This document shows positions 41,104-55,107 of a stretch of DNA of 64,000 bases, in pieces. The position numbers were made by a program, and so were the translations under genes. Every line of letters starts with the position of its first letter. Position 1 is the first letter of the stretch. The stretch is from Halogeometricum sp. S3BR5-2 (lineage in GTDB: Archaea > Halobacteriota > Halobacteria > Halobacteriales > Haloferacaceae), in NCBI RefSeq assembly GCF_031624635.1, contig NZ_JAMQOQ010000005.1, forward strand, positions 310,001 to 374,000, given 5' to 3'. The notes beneath the pieces were generated by a model. That model did no database searches. It had not been told where the DNA came from and was given only the letters and a program-made list of their open reading frames with translations.

Positions 41104-43920
41104 TCAGTCGCTCGTCGTCGCGGCCGTCGGGTTCGGCTTCTCGTCGGCCCCGCGGCGGTTCCGGAACGCGAGCAGTGCGAACAGGACGCCGCCGGCGGCG
41201 CGCATCCCGATGTCGAGGAGGAGCGGTTCGCCGAGGTTCGTCAGGACGCCGACCAGTCCGAGCACGTCGGTGACGGCGTTCAGAAGCAGCATCGGCGCCA
41301 TGAGCAGCAGCGCCGCGACGGCGTAGAGGACGCGTTCGCCGGCGCCGACGGTGCGGTAGAGGAAGCCGATGACGGTCACGCCGAGGGCGACGACGCCGAG
41401 GAACACCCCGGCGACGGGGATGACCACCTCGGGGAGGAAGTACGCCACGTCGGTCACGTCGGCCGTCGTGAGGACGCGGGCGGACTCGCCGCTCCCGCGG
41501 AGGAGCAGGATGCCGGGGGTGAGCGCGAACGCGAACGGCACGATGGCCTTGTTGAGCGACAGCGAGAACGCCTGCACCCCCGTTTGGAACGGATCGGACT
41601 TCGCTATCCCGGAGGCGGCGTAGGCGGCGACGGCCACCGGCGGCGTGATGTCCGCGATGACGCCGAAGTAGAGGATGAACAGGTGCGCCGCCAGCAGCGG
41701 AATGTCCGAGGACTGCGCGATGGCCGGCCCGAGGAGCGAGACGAGGATGATGTACGTCACCGTCGTCGGCATCCCCATCCCGAGGATGATGGACGCGACG
41801 GCGGTGAACACCAGGAGGAGGACGAGCGACCCGCCCGCAGTCGTGCGGATGAGCGCCGTCAGGTTGGGGCCGAGACCCGTCGCGCTGACGACGCCGGGGA
41901 TGATGCCCGCGGCGGCGACGGCGACGACGACTTCCGTGGCGGTGCGCGCGCCGGAGTCCATCGACTTGCCGACGAACACGCTGTAACGGAACGCGTTCAG
42001 GCGGGCGAGCGCCGGCCGGCCGACCGACCGCGCGACTCGCTCGCCGGCCTCGTCGACGGCGGCGTCCAAATCGAGCAGCGGCGCGTCGATGCGCGGCCGG
42101 ACGAGGAGGAACGCGAGGCTGACGACGACGACGATAGTCCCGAGGTCCCCGCCCGCGGCGAACACGGCCTCCACGGGGCCCATCGCCTCCTCCGCGCCGC
42201 CCGTCGCGGCCGCGAGGACGCCGACGTCGGTCAGGAGGTAGGAGACGACCTGCGCGGCCGTGAGTGCGGCGATAGCGCCGACCAACGGCACCCGCGTCCG
42301 GCGGTTGTACGCCGCGACGAAGGCGACCAGCGCCATGATGGCGACCAGGGTGAACCACGCCGACCGCGCGACGGTGAGTCGCTCGACCAGCAGGTAGAAC
42401 AGCAGCAGGCCGACGGGGAGGAGGTAGAACCACCCGACGCGGAGGTGCGCTCCGAGGTCGACAACCTCGCTGCGGTCGAGGCCGCCGATGTCCGCGCGGA
42501 CGGCTTCGAGGTGGACCATCACCCAGACCCCGAAGAAGAACACGATGGCCGGGATGGTCGCGGCGATGATGATGTCCGAGAAGGGGACGCCGATGAACTC
42601 GATCATCAGGAACGCCGCCGCGCCCATGACCGGTGGTAAAATCTGACCGCCCGAGGAGGCCGAAGATTCCACGGCGCCCGCGAACTCCGGGCGGTAGCCC
42701 GACTTCTTCATCAGGGGGATGGTGAACGCCCCCGTCGTGACCGTGTTGGCGATGGAGGAACCGGATATCATCCCCATGAACCCGGACGCCAGAATCGAGG
42801 CCTTCGCCGGACCGCCCCGGCGCGTCCCGGTGGCGGCGTACGCGAGGTCGATGAACCACTGGCCGGCGCCGGACATCTCCAGGAACGCGCCGAACAGGAT
42901 GAAGATGTAGATGAACTGCACCGAGACGGTGACGGGGATGCCGAAGACGCCGTTCTCGGTGTTGTACCAGAGGTTCTGGACGATGTTCGCCCACGACCCC
43001 TCGGTGATGGAGAGGACGCCGATGACCGGCGTGTCCGGCGCGATAAAGTAGCCGTACCGCGCGTAGACGATGAACGAGGCGACGATGAGCATGAGGTAGA
43101 GGCCGAGGGCGCGGCGGGTCGCCTCCAACACGAGGAGGACGCCCACGGCGCCGAGGAAGAACGGGTAGGAGACGTCGGCCAGCGGAATCCCGACGGCGCT
43201 CACCGCCTCGGCGAGGACGCCGAACGGGCCGAGGTACTCCGCGACGGACCGGCCCGCCGCCAGCCCCAGCACGCGGAGTTGCTGTATCTCGTCCCACTCG
43301 GTTACCATGTACTGCGCCGTGGCGACCGAGAGGAGGATACAGACGAGGTCCGCGGGCGTCACGCGGTTCCGCTCGCCGTCGACGACCGCCCAGCGGACGC
43401 CGCCTCTGACCGCCGTCGCCCCCCGCGCTATCGGGCTGTCGGCGCCGAACCGCGCGCGCGCCGCGGGGACGACGCGTCCGAGACGCCGCGAGACGGCCCC
43501 GGAGCCGTCGGTCGGGGGGAAGAGGACGAACGCGAGGACGAGGGCGAACGCGACGTGGACGGCGTTCACTTGGAGCAGTTGGAGCTGTCCGACTCCCACC
43601 TCGCCGACGAGGGGGAGGTCCACCTCGAAGGTGAACCCGCGCGCGGCGAGCCACATCTGGTACAGCGAAAAGGCGATGCCGACGACGGAGACGAAGAGGG
43701 CCGCGTAGCCCGAGAGGGAGCGCTTCCGCTCTATCTCCTGGAGGAGTTCCTCGGCCTCCTCGTCGCTCAGCGCGTCCGCTTCTTCGTCTCCGGAGTCCCG
43801 ACCGTCGTTTCGGCCGTCGCGGTCCCGGCCGCCGTCGGCGACCGCGCGGACCCGCGCGTTCGTCTCGGGGTCCGTCCCCGCTCCGTCACCGCTCCGAGGG
43901 TCGTCTGTGTCTGATGTCAT
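41104..43920 (-). CDS. TRAP transporter permease, fused small and large subunits (TAXI type)
   Basis: A 938-aa membrane protein with an acidic, soluble head (~60 residues) followed by about 16-18 membrane helices. The first third is DctQ-like. The remainder is DctM-like, with ATRRALGLYLMLIVASFIVY, the conserved FMGMISGSSIANTVTTGAFT and YRPEFAGAVESSASSGGQIL motifs, and GMGMPTTVTYIILVSLLGPA. This fused form is characteristic of TAXI-TRAP transporters, which use Na+ or H+ gradients to import organic solutes. It overlaps the DUF1850 gene by 4 nt and is last in the operon. Confidence 0.95.
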   Translation of the reverse strand: MTSDTDDPRSGDGAGTDPETNARVRAVADGGRDRDGRNDGRDSGDEEADALSDEEAEELLQEIERKRSLSGYAALFVSVVGIAFSLYQMWLAARGFTFEVDLPLVGEVGVGQLQLLQVNAVHVAFALVLAFVLFPPTDGSGAVSRRLGRVVPAARARFGADSPIARGATAVRGGVRWAVVDGERNRVTPADLVCILLSVATAQYMVTEWDEIQQLRVLGLAAGRSVAEYLGPFGVLAEAVSAVGIPLADVSYPFFLGAVGVLLVLEATRRALGLYLMLIVASFIVYARYGYFIAPDTPVIGVLSITEGSWANIVQNLWYNTENGVFGIPVTVSVQFIYIFILFGAFLEMSGAGQWFIDLAYAATGTRRGGPAKASILASGFMGMISGSSIANTVTTGAFTIPLMKKSGYRPEFAGAVESSASSGGQILPPVMGAAAFLMIEFIGVPFSDIIIAATIPAIVFFFGVWVMVHLEAVRADIGGLDRSEVVDLGAHLRVGWFYLLPVGLLLFYLLVERLTVARSAWFTLVAIMALVAFVAAYNRRTRVPLVGAIAALTAAQVVSYLLTDVGVLAAATGGAEEAMGPVEAVFAAGGDLGTIVVVVSLAFLLVRPRIDAPLLDLDAAVDEAGERVARSVGRPALARLNAFRYSVFVGKSMDSGARTATEVVVAVAAAGIIPGVVSATGLGPNLTALIRTTAGGSLVLLLVFTAVASIILGMGMPTTVTYIILVSLLGPAIAQSSDIPLLAAHLFILYFGVIADITPPVAVAAYAASGIAKSDPFQTGVQAFSLSLNKAIVPFAFALTPGILLLRGSGESARVLTTADVTDVAYFLPEVVIPVAGVFLGVVALGVTVIGFLYRTVGAGERVLYAVAALLLMAPMLLLNAVTDVLGLVGVLTNLGEPLLLDIGMRAAGGVLFALLAFRNRRGADEKPNPTAATTSD

Positions 43921-44423
43921 AGCTTGCTACCTGCCAGCGAGAGGGCGTGCGAGAGCGCGGACCGGCGCTCGACCGCCAACCGGACCGACCGGGCGTCGGA
44001 GAGGGCGACGAGGTCGTACGTCTCGTCGCCGACGCGGAGTTCGTGGCCCGCGACGTGACCGGGCTTCACGTACAGTTCCTCGTACGTGCCCTCGGGGTCG
44101 AAGACGAACGTCCCGTTCTCGACGGTCACGTCCGCTCGCGCCGGGAGCCCCGCTCCGTAGGACTCGAACTCCATCCGCGTCATCGTGAGGTTCGTCCCGT
44201 CGACGGCGTAGCCGTCCAGCACGCGCGTCTTCTCCACGCTGTGGGTGTATTCGAGGGCGACGGGCGTCCCCTCGGAGACGGGAACGGTCAGAAGCGTCTC
44301 GCCGGTCTCGGCGTCCTCGACCGTCAGCACGCGGTCGTCGGGCGTCGCCGCCCCCGCCCCGGCGACGAGGAGGACGAGGACGGCGAGACCGGCGAGCGAG
44401 CGCGCGGTTCGTCTCGGCGTCAC
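43917..44423 (-). CDS. DUF1850 protein of the TRAP operon
   Basis: A 168-aa protein with an N-terminal hydrophobic segment (ARSLAGLAVLVLLVAGAGAA), so it is exported or anchored. The mature part shows the DUF1850 pattern: EGTPVALEYTHSVEKTRVLD, MTRMEFESYGAGLPARADV and a strand with VKPGHVAGHELRVG. DUF1850 genes are commonly found between TAXI binding proteins and fused TRAP permeases; an accessory role in transport is assumed but not established. It is 10 nt after the binding-protein gene and overlaps the permease by 4 nt. Confidence 0.88.
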   Translation of the reverse strand: MTPRRTARSLAGLAVLVLLVAGAGAATPDDRVLTVEDAETGETLLTVPVSEGTPVALEYTHSVEKTRVLDGYAVDGTNLTMTRMEFESYGAGLPARADVTVENGTFVFDPEGTYEELYVKPGHVAGHELRVGDETYDLVALSDARSVRLAVERRSALSHALSLAGSKL

Positions 44424-44433
44424 GACCGACCGC

Positions 44434-45483
44434 TTACCCGAAGTACGCCTGCGCGCCCGGGTGGAGGTCGATGGACATCCCGTCCTGAGCGGACTCCGCC
44501 GAGATGAAGTCGGTCTTGATGGTGAGTTGGTCCGTGTTGTCGAAGATGGCCGCCGTGACCTCCTCGACCGTGGCCTCGTCCACCTGCGTCGTCGTGGCTA
44601 TCATCGCCTGCACCGACACCGTCGGGACGGCGGAGTCGAGGCCGTACGTTCCGGAGGGCACCTCGTCGTCGGCGTAGAACGGCGCGGCGTCCTTGACCGC
44701 CTGCCTGTTGTCGCCCTCGACGGGGACGACGACGACGTCCTCGGTCGCCGCCAGTTCCTCGATGGCGCCGACGGGCCACCCGCCGACGACGAACGCCGCG
44801 TCGATGTCGCCGTTCTTCAACTGGTCGGACGCCGTGGAGAACCCGGTGTTCTGTTCCTCGTAATCCGAGACGCCGAGCGCTTCGAGGATCTGCGTCGCGT
44901 TCACCTGCGTCCCCGACCCGAGGTCGCCGGTGTTGATAGTCGCCCCCGAGAGGTCCGAGGGGGACTCGATACCCGTTCCGGCGAGCGTGACGATGTGGAT
45001 GGTCTCGGGGTACAGCGTCGCGACGCCGCGGAGGCTCTCGACGGCGTTCCCCTGGAAGGCGTCGATGCCCTCGCCGTTGAACGCGAAGTAGGCGATGTCG
45101 TTCTGGATGAGCGCGAAGTCGGCCTCGCCGCGGGCGAGACTGCCGACGTTCTCCACCGACGCCCCGGTGGACTGCACCTGTAGCGTGTAGTCGGTGTTGC
45201 CCTCGACGACGGTCTTGAACTCGTTCGACAGCGGGAAGTACGTCCCGCCGGTCCCGCCGGCGTGCCACGAGAGGCGCCCGCTACCGCCGGACCCGCCGGA
45301 CCCGCCCGACGACTCCGTCTCGGTGTCCGTTCCCATCTCCGTCGACTCGCCTTCGCCGCCGGAGGTGGTCGTCTCGTCCTCGCCTTCGCCGCCGTTGCCG
45401 CCGCTCGAACAGCCCGCGATACCGACCAAGCCCGCCGCGCCGGTCGCTGCGATGAACTGACGGCGCCGCATCTTATCTGCCAT
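44434..45483 (-). CDS. TAXI family TRAP solute-binding lipoprotein
   Basis: Extracytoplasmic binding protein of 349 aa. It begins MADKMRRRQFIAATGAAGLV with a Tat-type twin Arg and a lipobox ending in GIAGCSS, followed by a Gly/Ser/Thr/Glu linker. The binding domain opens with WHAGGTGGTYFPLSNEFKTV, characteristic of TAXI proteins, and includes SLARGEADFALIQNDIAYFA and SGATINTGDLGSGTQVNA. It captures the substrate outside the cell and passes it to the fused permease. First gene of the three-gene operon; palindromic TATA DNA lies 23-32 nt upstream. Confidence 0.95.
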   Translation of the reverse strand: MADKMRRRQFIAATGAAGLVGIAGCSSGGNGGEGEDETTTSGGEGESTEMGTDTETESSGGSGGSGGSGRLSWHAGGTGGTYFPLSNEFKTVVEGNTDYTLQVQSTGASVENVGSLARGEADFALIQNDIAYFAFNGEGIDAFQGNAVESLRGVATLYPETIHIVTLAGTGIESPSDLSGATINTGDLGSGTQVNATQILEALGVSDYEEQNTGFSTASDQLKNGDIDAAFVVGGWPVGAIEELAATEDVVVVPVEGDNRQAVKDAAPFYADDEVPSGTYGLDSAVPTVSVQAMIATTTQVDEATVEEVTAAIFDNTDQLTIKTDFISAESAQDGMSIDLHPGAQAYFG

Positions 45484-45505
45484 ATTCCCGTACCTACCCC
45501 CGCCA

Positions 45506-45515
45506 CGTATATACG
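45506..45515 (-). promoter_or_regulatory. TATA-like box of the TRAP operon
   Basis: CGTATATACG, a 10-bp palindrome centred 27 nt before the ATG at 45483. This fits a leaderless promoter for the TAXI-TRAP operon. Confidence 0.6.
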
Positions 45516-45645
45516 GATTTTTATCAATTACCGGATTATCTGCAAATACGGAAGTTAATCTCAACTCAGATACACGTTAACACCCGTCAGCGGCCGTCCC
45601 CGCCGGTGGGCGTAACGCTTTCAGCGGAGGTGTCGAAGCCGGAGT

Positions 45646-48468: not shown

Positions 48469-49566
48469 TCAGAACTCGCCGCGGAACTCGCTATCAGTTA
48501 GTCGTCGCGGGTCGGTGGGGTGCGCGCCGAGCGTCGACTCCCGTTCCATCACGCGCTTGTAGGCGTCGTATACGTGGACCGTCTCGCCGTCCACCGTCGC
48601 CTCGTCGGTGCCGCGGACGCCGTCGAAGACGCGCCAGTCCGTCTCCTTCGCGTGCTCGAACCACGAGACGAGTTTCACGTCCTCGGCGGCGACGTAGTCG
48701 TAGAAGTCGGCTATCCACGCCGCCTTCCGCGCGGGGTCGTTGCCGCCCTCGACTTCGCTGGAGCAGGCGACTTCGGTGATAGCGAGAGGGGCGTCGGTGA
48801 CGCTCCGAACCCGCTCGAACGCCTTCGAGTATATCTCCGGGGGGTCGAACCATCCGGCCCACTCCCACCAGTTGTAGCCGTTGACGGCCGCCCAGTCGAC
48901 GGCGTCGTCGCCGGGGTAGTAGCGCGGAATCGGGATACCGCCGCGACCGCCGGCGTTCGGTCCCCACACCCACTGCACGTCCGTCGGGCCGAGTCCCGTC
49001 GCCATCACGCGGCCGCGCACGCGGCGGAACATCTCGATATAGTCCTCGGGCGTCGACCCGCCCGCGGGCGCGCCCCACTTCACCCAGTCGCCGTTCATCT
49101 CGGGGGCGAACTCGACGAAGAGGCGGCGGTCCGGGCGGCCGACTCCGCGGCGGACCCACCCGGCGATGGCCTCGCCCCACGCGTCCACCCGGTCGTCGTG
49201 GTCGCCGGCGGCCACGTCGGCAGAGACGGTGGTCGGCGTCTCTTCTTCCGTTCCGAACGTCGGTTCGAGCACGAGCATCGGCACCTGTCCCCGCGCCCAG
49301 ACGGCTTCGAGCGCCGACATCGTCCACGCTATCTCCTCGTCGGACTGCCCGAGGGCGGCGTACTGCGTGACGACGGCGTGTCGCTTCCCGGTCCAGCGCT
49401 CGAAGCGGTCGAGCGTCTCCACGGTCGGTCGCTCCACCGAGACGCCGGCGAGGAAGCCGCCCGTCCGCGTCGCTCCCGTCTCCGAGGCGGTCCGCATCAG
49501 TCCCGCGACGCCGACGGCGGCGCCCGCCGACGCGCCGACCAACCCCAGAAACTGCCGTCGTTCCAT
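48469..49566 (-). CDS. Tat-exported glycoside hydrolase, GH26-like
   Basis: A 365-aa exported enzyme. The signal has MERRQFLGLVGASAGAAVGV, a classic haloarchaeal Tat leader. The catalytic domain resembles GH26 (clan A barrel): a probable acid/base Glu in LFVEFAPEMNGDWVKW (the H/P-E-M-N-G motif), VQWVWGPNAGG, and a probable nucleophile Glu in PLAITEVACSSEV. GH26 enzymes cut beta-mannan or mixed-linkage glucan; specificity is not readable here. A Trp-rich loop (YNWWEWAGWF) should form part of the cleft. Transcribed alone. Confidence 0.85.
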   Translation of the reverse strand: MERRQFLGLVGASAGAAVGVAGLMRTASETGATRTGGFLAGVSVERPTVETLDRFERWTGKRHAVVTQYAALGQSDEEIAWTMSALEAVWARGQVPMLVLEPTFGTEEETPTTVSADVAAGDHDDRVDAWGEAIAGWVRRGVGRPDRRLFVEFAPEMNGDWVKWGAPAGGSTPEDYIEMFRRVRGRVMATGLGPTDVQWVWGPNAGGRGGIPIPRYYPGDDAVDWAAVNGYNWWEWAGWFDPPEIYSKAFERVRSVTDAPLAITEVACSSEVEGGNDPARKAAWIADFYDYVAAEDVKLVSWFEHAKETDWRVFDGVRGTDEATVDGETVHVYDAYKRVMERESTLGAHPTDPRRLTDSEFRGEF

Positions 49567-49734: not shown

Positions 49735-50046
49735 ATGTTGGATGGAACACACGCGTCCGCTTCTCGGAGCCACCGCGCGGACCCGGACTGTCCGGACTGC
49801 GGCGAGGGTCGGGTGCGGCGGGTCGGCGCGTTCGAGCACGTGCGGTGCGGATTTGTCGACGTCGTCGCCGCCTTCGACGCCGACGGTCCGAACGCCGTCT
49901 GTCCGAAGTGCGACGCGACGCTCGCGCCGGCGGACGAGGACCTGCGGTGCGTCGGCTTCCTGTACGACTGCTCGTCCTGCGACCACCGGTTCGACGCGCC
50001 GGTTTCGTTCGCCTCGCGCCTCCCCCGGACGGCGGAGTCCGACTGA
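49735..50046 (+). CDS. TackOD1-like zinc-ribbon protein, 103 aa
   Basis: Three Cys pairs are arranged as DCPDCGEGRVRRV, AFEHVRCGFVDV, VCPKCDATL and YDCSSCDHRF. The order CPxC, EH-x-x-CG, CPKC and CxxC matches the TackOD1 output domain as I recall it. It would bind two zinc ions. The stop overlaps the ATG of the glycosyltransferase by one base, so the proteins are made together. It may regulate or tether the membrane enzyme (inference). Confidence 0.7.
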   Translation: MLDGTHASASRSHRADPDCPDCGEGRVRRVGAFEHVRCGFVDVVAAFDADGPNAVCPKCDATLAPADEDLRCVGFLYDCSSCDHRFDAPVSFASRLPRTAESD

Positions 50047-51755
50047 TGGCGGCGGCGCCGCCGGACCGGGCGGCCCGGTGGACCGGCCGCGCCCCGGTGC
50101 AGTTGCTGCTCTTGCTCGTCGCTGTCCTCGCCGGGACGCTGCTGTTTCCGGCCCGTCTCGTCCTCGCGCCGCTCGGATTCGCGCTCGTCCTCTCGGCCCT
50201 GCTCTTCGCCGCCGAGCGCTGGCCTCGCGGCTTCGACCGACTCTTCGCCGCATCGCTGCCGGTTCCGGTCTGGGCCGCCGCCGCGGCGCTCCTCGCTCTC
50301 GCGTTCTCGGGCGCGCTCACCGTCGCCGAACGGCTCACGGCCGAGACCGCCGCGTTCGCCCTGCTCACGTCGCTGTGCCTCCCGTGGCTCGTCGCCCTCG
50401 CTTTCGACGGGAACGCCCGCCGAGCCGCGTCGACGCGGCTTCGGGTCCCGACGTGGCCGCTCTCCGTCCTGTCGCTGCTCGGTCTCACCGGCGCGTTCGT
50501 CTTCGGCGGACGCCTCCCCTCGGCGTTCGAGGCGGCCGTCTTCGCGGGCTTTCTCGTCGTCTCCTGCATCGTCGCGGTGGTCGTTCCCTTGACGCTCGCG
50601 CAGGTCCGCGGCCGCCCCGAACTGGACGAGACGTTCGGCGGCGACGCGCCGTTCGTGAGCGTGCTCGTCCCCGCGTACAACGAGTCCGACTACGTCGGCG
50701 CCTGCGTCGAGTCGATACTCGCCTCCGACTACCCCACAGACCGGATGGAGGTACTCGTCGTCGACGACGGGAGCACCGACGGCACGTACGCGGAGGCGGC
50801 CGCCTACCGCGACGACGACCGGGTGTCGGTGTACCACCGCGCGAACGGCGGCAAGCACGCCGCGCTGAACTTCGCGCTCTCGTGTAGCCGCGGCGAGTTC
50901 GTCGTCACCGTCGACGCCGACAGCGTCCTCGACGCCGGGGCGCTCCGGACGGCGGCGGCGAAACTCGACGCGAACCCGGAACTGGGCGCCGTCGCCGGCA
51001 CCGTCGTCATCGACAACCCCGAGGGCGTCGTCGGCGGCGTGCAGGCGCTGGAGTACGTCCTCGGCATCAACACGCTCAGGCGCGCGTTCTCCCACCTCGG
51101 GTCGGTGATGGTCGTCCCCGGCTGTCTCGGCGTGTTCCGCCGCGAGGCGCTGGTCGGCGTCGGCGGCTACGACCCCGACACCGTGACCGAGGACTTCGAC
51201 CTGACGCTCTCGCTCCTGAAGGCCGGCTGGCGGGTGGAACTGTCCGAGGGCGTCGTCTACACCGAGGCGCCGTTCTCCGTCTCGGACCTCCTCCACCAGC
51301 GACTCCGCTGGACCCGCGGGAACGTCCAGACGCTCTGCAAGCACCGCGACGTGCTCTGGACGCCGGCGTACGGTTCGCTGCATCGGTTCACGTTCCCCCT
51401 GTGGGCGTGCTCGCTGCTTCTCGTCCCGTTGGCGGGGGCGCTGGTCACGGCGACGCTCGTCGGCGCGGCGCTCCACGGCACCCTCCCCGCCGTCGCCCTC
51501 GCCACCGGCTACTTCGTCGTCGTCCTCTCGCTCGTCGCGGCGACGGCGCTCGACGTGTCCGGGAGCGACTGGCGACTGCTCGCGTACGTCCCGCTCCACG
51601 TCGTCGGCTACCGGCAGTTCCTCGACTTCGTGGTGTTCCGGACGCTCGTCGGCCTCCTCCGCGGGTCGACCGAGCGCTGGGAGTCGGTCGCGCGGGCGCG
51701 TCAGGAGCCCTCGGACGCGCCGTCCGCCGGCGTTCGCGCCCCCGCCGACGACTGA
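50046..51755 (+). CDS. membrane glycosyltransferase family 2
   Basis: A 569-aa processive-type glycosyltransferase. The N-terminal part has five or six membrane helices. The GT2 domain begins FVSVLVPAYNESDYVGACVE and contains VLVVDDGSTDGTYAEA, the metal-binding FVVTVDADSVLD, GCLGVFRREALVG, the acceptor-site TVTEDFDLTLSL (TED) and QRLRWTRGNVQ (Q-x-x-RW). Three or four more helices end the protein. This set is that of hyaluronan/cellulose/poly-GlcNAc synthases, so it may make an extracellular polysaccharide. It is coupled to the zinc-ribbon gene. Confidence 0.92.
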   Translation: MAAAPPDRAARWTGRAPVQLLLLLVAVLAGTLLFPARLVLAPLGFALVLSALLFAAERWPRGFDRLFAASLPVPVWAAAAALLALAFSGALTVAERLTAETAAFALLTSLCLPWLVALAFDGNARRAASTRLRVPTWPLSVLSLLGLTGAFVFGGRLPSAFEAAVFAGFLVVSCIVAVVVPLTLAQVRGRPELDETFGGDAPFVSVLVPAYNESDYVGACVESILASDYPTDRMEVLVVDDGSTDGTYAEAAAYRDDDRVSVYHRANGGKHAALNFALSCSRGEFVVTVDADSVLDAGALRTAAAKLDANPELGAVAGTVVIDNPEGVVGGVQALEYVLGINTLRRAFSHLGSVMVVPGCLGVFRREALVGVGGYDPDTVTEDFDLTLSLLKAGWRVELSEGVVYTEAPFSVSDLLHQRLRWTRGNVQTLCKHRDVLWTPAYGSLHRFTFPLWACSLLLVPLAGALVTATLVGAALHGTLPAVALATGYFVVVLSLVAATALDVSGSDWRLLAYVPLHVVGYRQFLDFVVFRTLVGLLRGSTERWESVARARQEPSDAPSAGVRAPADD

Positions 51756-53823: not shown

Positions 53824-55107
53824 CTACTCCTCCGGCGTCGGTTCCGAAAGCGTCGCCCGCCCGCCCGGTTCCTCGGGGAAGGGGTTCTCGAACGTCTCCC
53901 ACGACTCGCCCATCTCCTCGTCGGTGAGCAGGCAGTCGTTCAGCGCGGCGACCAGCGCCTCCTCGTCCATCCCGCGGCCGATGAACACCAGTCCGGTGCG
54001 CCGGTCGCCCCACTCTTCGTCCCACTCGAACCCGAGGTCCGAGCGGTTGCGTCGATACGCGTCCTGCTCGAACTCGGGGAGGCTCGCCACCCACCGGCCC
54101 GTGACCTCGGCGTAGGCGGAGGGACCGGCCCGACTGTAGGTGAGGTGGGCGTCCTCCCGCCCGGCGACCCACATCGACCCCTTCGCGCGGAGGACGCTGC
54201 CGGGGAGGTCCGCGAGGAGGGCGGCGACGCGCGCGGGGTGGAACGGCCGGCGGCGGCGGTAGACGAACGAGTCGACGCCGTACGCCTCCTCGGGGTGGGC
54301 GTGCTCGTGCTCGTGGTCGGAGTGGCCGTCGTGGTCGTGTCCGACGCCGCCGTCTCGGTCACCGCTCTCGTCCGCGTCTAGCGCCCGCCGCCACCCCGCG
54401 CGTTCGGCCGCCGTCCCCGGGTCGAACAGGTCGGTGTCCAACAGGCGGTCTACCGGCACCGCGGCGTACTCGGCGGCGACGATGTCGGCGTCCGGGCGCA
54501 GGGCGCGAACGACCGACTCGACCCGTTCGCGTTCGGCGTCGCTCACCAGGTCACATTTGTTCAGGACGACGAGGTCCGCGAACTCGACCTGTTCGACCAG
54601 GAGGTCCGAGAGCGGTCTGCGCTCGCCGTCGCCGTCCTCGGCGACGGCCCGAGTCGGCTCCCCGTCGGAGCCGAACGTGTCCGCGAACTGCCGGGCGTCG
54701 ACGACGGCGACGACGGCGTCCACGTCGTAGCGGGCGGCCGCGGGCGACCCGCCCGTGAACAGGCGCGCGACGGGCGCGGGTTCGCTGATTCCCGAGGGCT
54801 CGACGACGAGGTGGTCGAACGAGCGCTCGCGGGCGAGGCGGACGACGGCGGTTTCGAGGTCGTCGCGGAGTTCACAGCAGATACAGCCGTTCGACAACTC
54901 CGCGACCGTGCCGTCGGCGACGGAGAGGTCCGACTCCTCGCTGACGAGTTCGGCGTCGACGTTCAACTCGCCCATGTCGTTGACGAGGACGGCGACGCTC
55001 CGGTCGCCCGCGTTCCGCAGGAGGTGGTTCAGAAGCGTCGTCTTGCCGGCGCCGAGGCTCCCGGTGAGGATGGTGACCGGTGTCGCGTCCGACCCGCCTA
55101 AACTCAT
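53824..55107 (-). CDS. CobW/COG0523 G3E GTPase with His-rich loop
   Basis: A 427-aa metal-handling GTPase. Walker A is LTGSLGAGKTTLLNHLL; the metal site is the GCICCELRDDL (CxCC) motif; Walker B and the base-recognition NKCDLV are present. A His/Asp/Glu-rich loop (HDHDGHSDHEHEHAHPEEA) lies before the CobW C-terminal domain (RRRRPFHPARVAALLADLPG, VLRAKGSMWVAGR). Such proteins deliver Zn2+ or cobalt, or act in zinc limitation. No cobalamin gene is adjacent, so zinc is more likely. Divergent from a small membrane protein. Confidence 0.92.
   Translation of the reverse strand: MSLGGSDATPVTILTGSLGAGKTTLLNHLLRNAGDRSVAVLVNDMGELNVDAELVSEESDLSVADGTVAELSNGCICCELRDDLETAVVRLARERSFDHLVVEPSGISEPAPVARLFTGGSPAAARYDVDAVVAVVDARQFADTFGSDGEPTRAVAEDGDGERRPLSDLLVEQVEFADLVVLNKCDLVSDAERERVESVVRALRPDADIVAAEYAAVPVDRLLDTDLFDPGTAAERAGWRRALDADESGDRDGGVGHDHDGHSDHEHEHAHPEEAYGVDSFVYRRRRPFHPARVAALLADLPGSVLRAKGSMWVAGREDAHLTYSRAGPSAYAEVTGRWVASLPEFEQDAYRRNRSDLGFEWDEEWGDRRTGLVFIGRGMDEEALVAALNDCLLTDEEMGESWETFENPFPEEPGGRATLSEPTPEE

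Follow-up and report, generated by a model that had tools for sequence, protein, structure and literature searches.

What is known of the control of bacterial polysaccharide synthases mostly concerns c-di-GMP together with PilZ, PelD or PgaCD, and PMC8461298 describes three arrangements close to the one reported here: in BcsA, a PilZ domain gates the glycosyltransferase (GT2); in Alg44, PilZ is joined via one helix to a periplasmic domain and the partner is Alg8; and in PelD, a degenerate GGDEF domain is used. Among archaea, the REC-GT2 fusions of Methanobacteriales (MTH_548) resemble our loci in placing a response-regulator input on a BcsA-like GT2 and differ from them in that the fusion is direct, TackOD1 being unmentioned in the account of these proteins (PMC5847659). 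The same 2018 paper calls the function of TackOD1 (PF18551; arCOG06883) obscure, and no link between TackOD1 and a glycosyltransferase was found in its treatment of the domain; in the relevant part of PMC4858521, arCOG06883 is placed in thaumarchaeal type IV pilus loci. Our literature search, which did not reach preprints and many subscription papers, found no pairing of TackOD1 with a GT2. To our knowledge, no control of such synthases has been described for organisms without c-di-GMP, haloarchaea included.

We analysed a stretch of 64,000 nucleotides from Halogeometricum sp. S3BR5-2 (henceforth the window), in which a first-pass annotation had proposed a TackOD1-like zinc ribbon "fused in operon" to a processive glycosyltransferase. 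Both open reading frames are present where that annotation had placed them (Table 1), and at their junction, GACTGATGG, the TGA stop of the ribbon gene and the ATG start of the GT2 gene overlap by the one base noted there. The same junction occurs in a second species of the genus. The pair in the window is a two-gene operon and a gene fusion is excluded here, so that the operon in the proposed wording stands and the fusion does not.

Table 1. Features of the ribbon/GT2 locus and of other genes in the window, with profile matches.
Feature	Coordinates	Strand	Matches
DUF1850 protein, adjoins NMT1-like gene	43917-44423		82.4 bits
NMT1-like substrate-binding protein	44434-45564		210.6 bits
P0003, secreted GH26-like glycoside hydrolase, 365 aa, Tat signal	48469..49566	-	PF02156 26.3 bits (cut-off 20.2); TIGR01409 TAT 17.7 (cut-off 16.7)
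P0001, probable minimal TackOD1 double zinc ribbon, 103 aa	49735..50046	+	PF18551 38.8 bits (cut-off 32)
P0002, membrane GT2 of the processive polysaccharide synthase type, 569 aa	50046..51755	+	PF00535 114.6 bits; PF13641 100.1 bits
CobW-type GTPase with His-rich stretch	53824-55107		183 bits

The ribbon protein P0001 has eight Cys, within the six to eight anticipated, arranged as three CxxC plus an HxxC that likely form two zinc sites (C19, C22, H35, C38 and C56, C59, C79, C82), with C72 as a surplus Cys outside both. Seven of these ligands (C22, H35, C38, C56, C59, C79 and C82) are unchanged across seven standalone ribbons, P0001 included. The PF18551 match spans only positions 90-161 of the 188-position profile: positions 1-89 are missing and 18 residues precede the first Cys, which leaves no room for a winged helix-turn-helix (wHTH). 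A full TackOD1 domain has ~190-200 residues and 11 conserved Cys in five CxxC plus an HxxC; P0001 shares with it the zinc-ribbon half, CxxC-HxxC-CPxC-CxxC, and lacks the first CxxC along with the rest of positions 1-89, the last CxxC and any REC domain, while its gene is accompanied by those for a GT2 and a GH26-like enzyme. To judge from its sequence, P0001 is a minimal or derived TackOD1 ribbon and not the full domain.

Profile comparison bears out the proposed family and argues against an unrelated ribbon. By hhalign, the seven standalone ribbons match 14 TackOD1 proteins with E 2.2e-16 (probability 98.7), ribbons of a second, fused class (see below) match them with E 2.8e-16, and the two kinds of ribbon match each other with E 3.3e-17; two zinc-ribbon controls gave E 0.015 and 0.012, as single sequences, which are weaker controls than multi-row ones. 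L083 was left out of set A4. With a limit of E <= 1, PF18551 was found in 7/7 standalone and 7/8 fused ribbons, the best of the latter at 4.8e-11; one fused member has 18.0 bits, short of the cut-off (32). An FmdB-type ribbon was considered as the main family of P0001 and rejected, since its matches to Zn_ribbon_8 (PF09723, 38.4 bits, cut-off 34.4) and TIGR02605 (34.1 bits, above cut-off) are each broken into three stretches and pass only by their sum. Compared with the sister species, the 103 ribbon codons show 27 base differences, 16 of them at third positions; 12 codons are amino-acid-changing and 11 silent, suggesting moderate constraint on the whole ribbon protein.

Structure prediction gave a pLDDT of 75.1 for P0001 and 60.2 for a Chryseobacterium TackOD1 protein, in which the ribbon part is well predicted. 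Foldseek returned nothing at E <= 0.001 for either model, and the weak matches of P0001 include RING, rubredoxin and RNA polymerase zinc proteins. We saw no solved TackOD1 structure, the best PDB profile (E 0.0043) being an anaerobic ribonucleotide reductase. Three archaeal TackOD1 proteins (L270, L279 and L281) carry an extra conserved C-terminal part of ~150 residues that looks nuclease-like by eye.

The second gene, P0002, carries the D, DxD, TED and QxxRW motifs and the flanking membrane helices of processive GT2 synthases, as the first-pass annotation had read it. In 13 GT2 sequences, P0002 included, DAD, the second D and the GS of DDGS, ED within TED and the Q, R and W of QxxRW never vary; conservation is 90% or higher for the first D of DDGS and for the T of TED. 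Hydropathy places four membrane segments ahead of the catalytic domain and two or three behind it, and PDB profile matches include BcsA and hyaluronan synthase. PgaC_IcaA is the best NCBIfam match for the GT2 in three lineages, which is a likeness to the PNAG synthase (PgaC/PgaB/PgaD); P0002 itself reaches 168.5 bits against the 422.3 required by the equivalog cut-off, and was rejected as a PgaC/IcaA.

On the other side of the ribbon gene, the nearest gene is the divergently transcribed P0003. A nine-sequence P0003 profile matches Endoglucanase H (2vi0, E 3e-27), and the PEMNGDW and ITEVA motifs of P0003 align with HEANGDW and IAEFA of that enzyme, as expected of a GH26 member; we take the aligned Glu of the two motifs to be the catalytic pair. 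Endoglucanase H is, as we understand it, a lichenase-type enzyme, and from this likeness one might guess, no more than that, at beta-glucan or mannan as the polymer. Deacetylase-like and glycoside-hydrolase neighbours such as are found around these GT2 genes (see below) recall, to our mind, the two halves of PgaB, the GH26 of P0003 presumably differing from the PgaB hydrolase family. Farther out in the window, the NMT1-like and DUF1850 genes are arranged as we would expect of TAXI-type uptake loci and are presumably ordinary. The CobW-type GTPase gene, possibly concerned with metal handling, lies ~1.3 kb past an upp-like gene (by eye), and a similar gene sits at the same end of the ribbon/GT2 pair in L012 and L036.

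That the pair might be peculiar to this genome is ruled out by its recurrence in the genus and the order. Within the genus, two of five genomes carry a ribbon match beside this GT2. For the order, a search of 293 genomes with P0002 (E <= 1e-90) found 34 places, spread over 33 genomes, and the window and 33 regions around these places were scanned with four HMMs built in this analysis. The ribbon is in the same cluster as the GT2 in 22 of these 34 close haloarchaeal loci and absent from 12, counts that are circular to the extent that the ribbon HMM was trained on many of the loci it scored; outside its training set it matched L094, L096, L097, L148, L160 and L175-L178 with 40.7-69.4 bits. Three layouts are found. 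In six loci, the window included, a small standalone ribbon gene precedes the GT2 and a GH26-like gene lies divergently alongside; in 14, a single frame holds the ribbon and a DUF2334/deacetylase-like part, one membrane helix joining the two, again before the GT2; and in two, the ribbon, the DUF2334-like protein and the GT2 each have their own gene. Fusions thus do occur, at other loci. Pfam recognises DUF2334 at 90 bits in one fused protein (L079), and in all seven fused proteins examined, six from the 34-locus set and one from Natronococcus (L094), positive charge is greater on the helix flank that carries the ribbon, with a weak bias in L077, suggesting a cytosolic ribbon. Relatives of P0003 adjoin the GT2 in nine of the 34 loci and lie farther off in one more. 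Two of the 12 ribbon-free loci hold both GH26-like and DUF2334-like genes and the other ten neither, as judged by HMMs that were likewise built from loci of this set. Those two, L075 and L078, have the GH26-like gene, the GT2 and the DUF2334-like protein with no ribbon found, so cassettes that lack the zinc protein do exist.

Ribbons also occur apart from this GT2. A P0001-like ribbon was found in 22 genomes and is near a GT2 in eight, the other 14 having been inspected for ~1.5 kb on each side (more for three). One haloarchaeal genome has two TackOD1-ribbon genes in tandem (L043:7300-9230), and no GT2 or DUF2334-like gene was found in that 15 kb region. In the genome of the window, PF18551 matches three places, namely the window ribbon (36.3 bits in this search), a longer TackOD1 on contig C1 (73.1 bits) and one place below the cut-off, and 14 control genomes have no match. 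The gene of the longer protein (330 aa as called; L009:8099-9088, genome G000) is flanked by NADH-dehydrogenase-like genes on one side and by a purE-like gene on the other (named by eye); no GT2 of the P0002 kind was seen in its vicinity, and G002 and G004 have it at the same location.

A tree of 61 GT2 domains places the window GT2 in a clade made up of seven standalone-ribbon loci, with support of 96/87, and the fused class in one of 15 (99/93). Nine ribbon-free haloarchaeal GT2 form one group (84/82); of the remaining three, two join the standalone clade (83/60) and the third is placed next to G065. Distances among the ribbons correlate with those among the GT2 (Mantel r 0.71 for 24 haloarchaeal pairs and 0.58 for 49 pairs, reached in 0/2000 permutations each), a correlation to which shared species history contributes.

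The pairing extends to other archaea and to bacteria. A survey of named genomes by GT2 profile, using patterns that were too general, gave 80 loci among the matches listed; a ribbon adjoins the GT2 in five of them, one being the haloarchaeon Natronococcus (L094), and the rest are mainly bacterial, Streptomyces above all. In Nitrosarchaeum (L097), the GT2 is accompanied by a polysaccharide deacetylase and a REC-TackOD1 protein; in archaeon Bin_33_1 (L096), by a TackOD1 protein whose start resembles REC and by a histidine-kinase-like gene (both by eye); in Brockarchaeota (L148), TackOD1 is followed by the GT2; and in Chryseobacterium (L160), an outer-membrane-protein-like gene (Pfam below cut-off) and an HlyD-like gene (by eye) precede TackOD1 and the GT2. 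By eye, extra Cys/His zinc-finger-like motifs are present at the N-terminus of the GT2 of Nitrosarchaeum (one, L097:4233-6050) and Bin_33_1 (two, L096:394-2190), and the gene two before TackOD1 in the Bacteroidia loci L243:5605-7683 and L160:766-2787 has outer-membrane efflux and hydrolase-like parts (Pfam weak).

Two lineages were counted systematically: Bacteroidia and Thermoproteota, which we take, in GTDB usage, to be the class of the Chryseobacterium genome and the phylum of the Nitrosarchaeum genome. TackOD1 scores above cut-off in 18 of 247 Bacteroidia genomes, and all 18 have a GT2 inside the 1.5 kb flank; four matches below the cut-off have no GT2 in that flank. By comparison, a weak GT2 match occurs in this class at one of 29 loci of a DZR-type zinc-ribbon control (Fisher p 4e-12), of which 25 are below the family cut-off or reach it only with neighbours and four are above it. 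In Thermoproteota, TackOD1 is above cut-off in 92 of 151 genomes, and among the best-scoring 30 loci (not a random sample) a GT2 lies within 1.5 kb at eight, against 0/30 TFIIB controls (p 0.005); the other 22 have no GT2 within that distance, some of them ending at contig ends. Larger regions, partly chosen after the first flank result, were kept out of the counts. On plasmids, 17 records match the Chryseobacterium TackOD1 protein; in nine of the ten examined a GT2 follows TackOD1, with one small gene between them in Alisedimentitalea, and the Haladaptatus locus has TackOD1 without a GT2. After the GT2 in these nine come an annotated HlyD-family gene (four), a gene annotated "hypothetical" (three), an unannotated record (one) or the record end (one).

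Signal-input domains occur on some of these proteins. Pfam assigns REC to two of eight plasmid TackOD1 proteins (Roseibium and Palleronia), GGDEF to two (Plesiomonas and Aeromonas) and no input domain to four. In the three gammaproteobacterial proteins, from Plesiomonas, Aeromonas and Photobacterium, the GGDEF is degenerate, its catalytic motif gone and RxxD kept; the RxxD rule is taken from a part of PMC5567048. The C-terminal part of Bacteroidia TackOD1 matches the gammaproteobacterial one with 85% probability (L207 left out), and Pfam GGDEF at E <= 1 is found in three of 12 such parts (best 0.0015). These 12 form set A8, out of the 16 Bacteroidia proteins found by a Cys pattern that missed L182 and L208 among the 18. 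At the aligned site, three of the 16 have RxxD (L192, L198 and L207), 11 have KxxD and two neither; RxxD is found elsewhere in two further proteins. Among 23 genomes that have the pair, 10 of them from haloarchaea and 13 from Bacteroidia, none has GGDEF above cut-off, the one weak match lying inside the TackOD1 frame itself, and PilZ (PF07238) was found in 0/23. Nor was PilZ found in 59 haloarchaeal genomes or among the Pfam matches listed for P0001 (25 of 29), P0002 and P0003; a literal or hidden PilZ as the control part of the GT2 was therefore rejected for the proteins and genomes searched. The REC and degenerate GGDEF domains on GT2-adjacent TackOD1 proteins, together with the lack of PilZ and of above-cut-off GGDEF in the 23 genomes, fit the PilZ-like role that the first-pass annotation had suggested for the ribbon, and give that suggestion partial support.

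Much as PilZ and PelD do, TackOD1 stands beside a GT2, shares a protein with a membrane helix, or is combined with REC or a degenerate GGDEF, and we read it by analogy as a cytosolic partner that probably controls (or assembles) GT2 polysaccharide synthases, with a probability of roughly 0.55. The families of the parts, their conserved linkage, the fusions and the absence of PilZ from the genomes searched are observed. In the proposed mechanism, the GT2 would polymerise and extrude the chain, the GH26-like enzyme would work on it outside the cell, and the ribbon would bind the GT2 from the cytosolic side and decide whether it works, filling the place that PilZ has in BcsA and Alg44 and the degenerate GGDEF in PelD. 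In other haloarchaea the ribbon would be tied to the membrane through the DUF2334/deacetylase-like protein, and in bacteria a full TackOD1, at times with REC or degenerate GGDEF, would take this place beside the GT2, with an HlyD-type gene in several. The fused haloarchaeal class, with its small cytosolic domain, one helix, extracytoplasmic domain and adjoining GT2, compares with Alg44/Alg8, as do TackOD1 genes with GT2 and HlyD neighbours, whereas here the cytosolic part is a zinc ribbon with no PilZ found and the haloarchaeal outer part is DUF2334-like instead of a membrane-fusion domain. With PelD the likeness is the degenerate GGDEF with RxxD of the gammaproteobacterial proteins; by contrast, a GT2 stands here for PelF and TackOD1 for GAF, and the haloarchaeal ribbon has no GGDEF part. 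The ribbon is not always required: 12 of 34 close haloarchaeal GT2 lack it, nine of them in one clade, which counts against a general need, and the presence of arCOG06883 in pilus loci counts against TackOD1 being a GT2 partner in general, as do the many TackOD1 genes of Thermoproteota and haloarchaea that lie away from a GT2.

Part of this evidence can be read differently. The ribbon could serve constitutively in assembly or coupling, as a subunit that keeps synthase and extracellular enzymes together and carries no signal. No recognised sensor domain was found in the haloarchaeal ribbons, four of the eight plasmid TackOD1 proteins have no Pfam input domain, and the single frame shared with a DUF2334-like part in 14 loci would suit a tether between synthase and modifying enzyme; REC or degenerate GGDEF on other GT2-adjacent TackOD1 proteins suits signalling instead, and we consider a purely structural subunit unlikely. 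Still less probable is that TackOD1 proteins bind DNA or RNA and regulate expression of the neighbouring operon, as the REC-wHTH-TackOD1 architecture described in part of PMC5847659 might suggest. Zinc ribbons are frequent in transcription proteins and the weak Foldseek matches include RNA polymerase zinc proteins, but the standalone haloarchaeal ribbon is too short for a wHTH and the fused-class ribbon belongs to a protein that also has a membrane helix. Lastly, the neighbourhood might have been inherited by descent with no working link between ribbon and GT2, since shared species history would also yield the Mantel correlation and the clade structure. This is very improbable given that the pair is found in Halobacteria, Thermoproteota, Bacteroidota and Alpha- and Gammaproteobacteria with differing partners, gene orders and fusions.

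Returning to TackOD1 as a cytosolic control partner, a wider proposal can be made tentatively: TackOD1 might be the central switch of an unnamed class of GT2 polysaccharide machines in Archaea and Bacteria, which would read varied inputs (REC, degenerate GGDEF or, with the bare ribbon, a haloarchaeal signal) and control the synthase by direct contact, even where a lineage has no c-di-GMP enzymes. If so, TackOD1 would be a c-di-GMP-independent counterpart of PilZ. In polysaccharide synthesis the small zinc protein may be a control component that has been overlooked; the widespread, linked zinc ribbon gives PF18551, a domain of obscure function, a concrete and testable job, and archaeal surface polysaccharides gain a defined cassette of genes, accessible to deletion in haloarchaea amenable to genetics.
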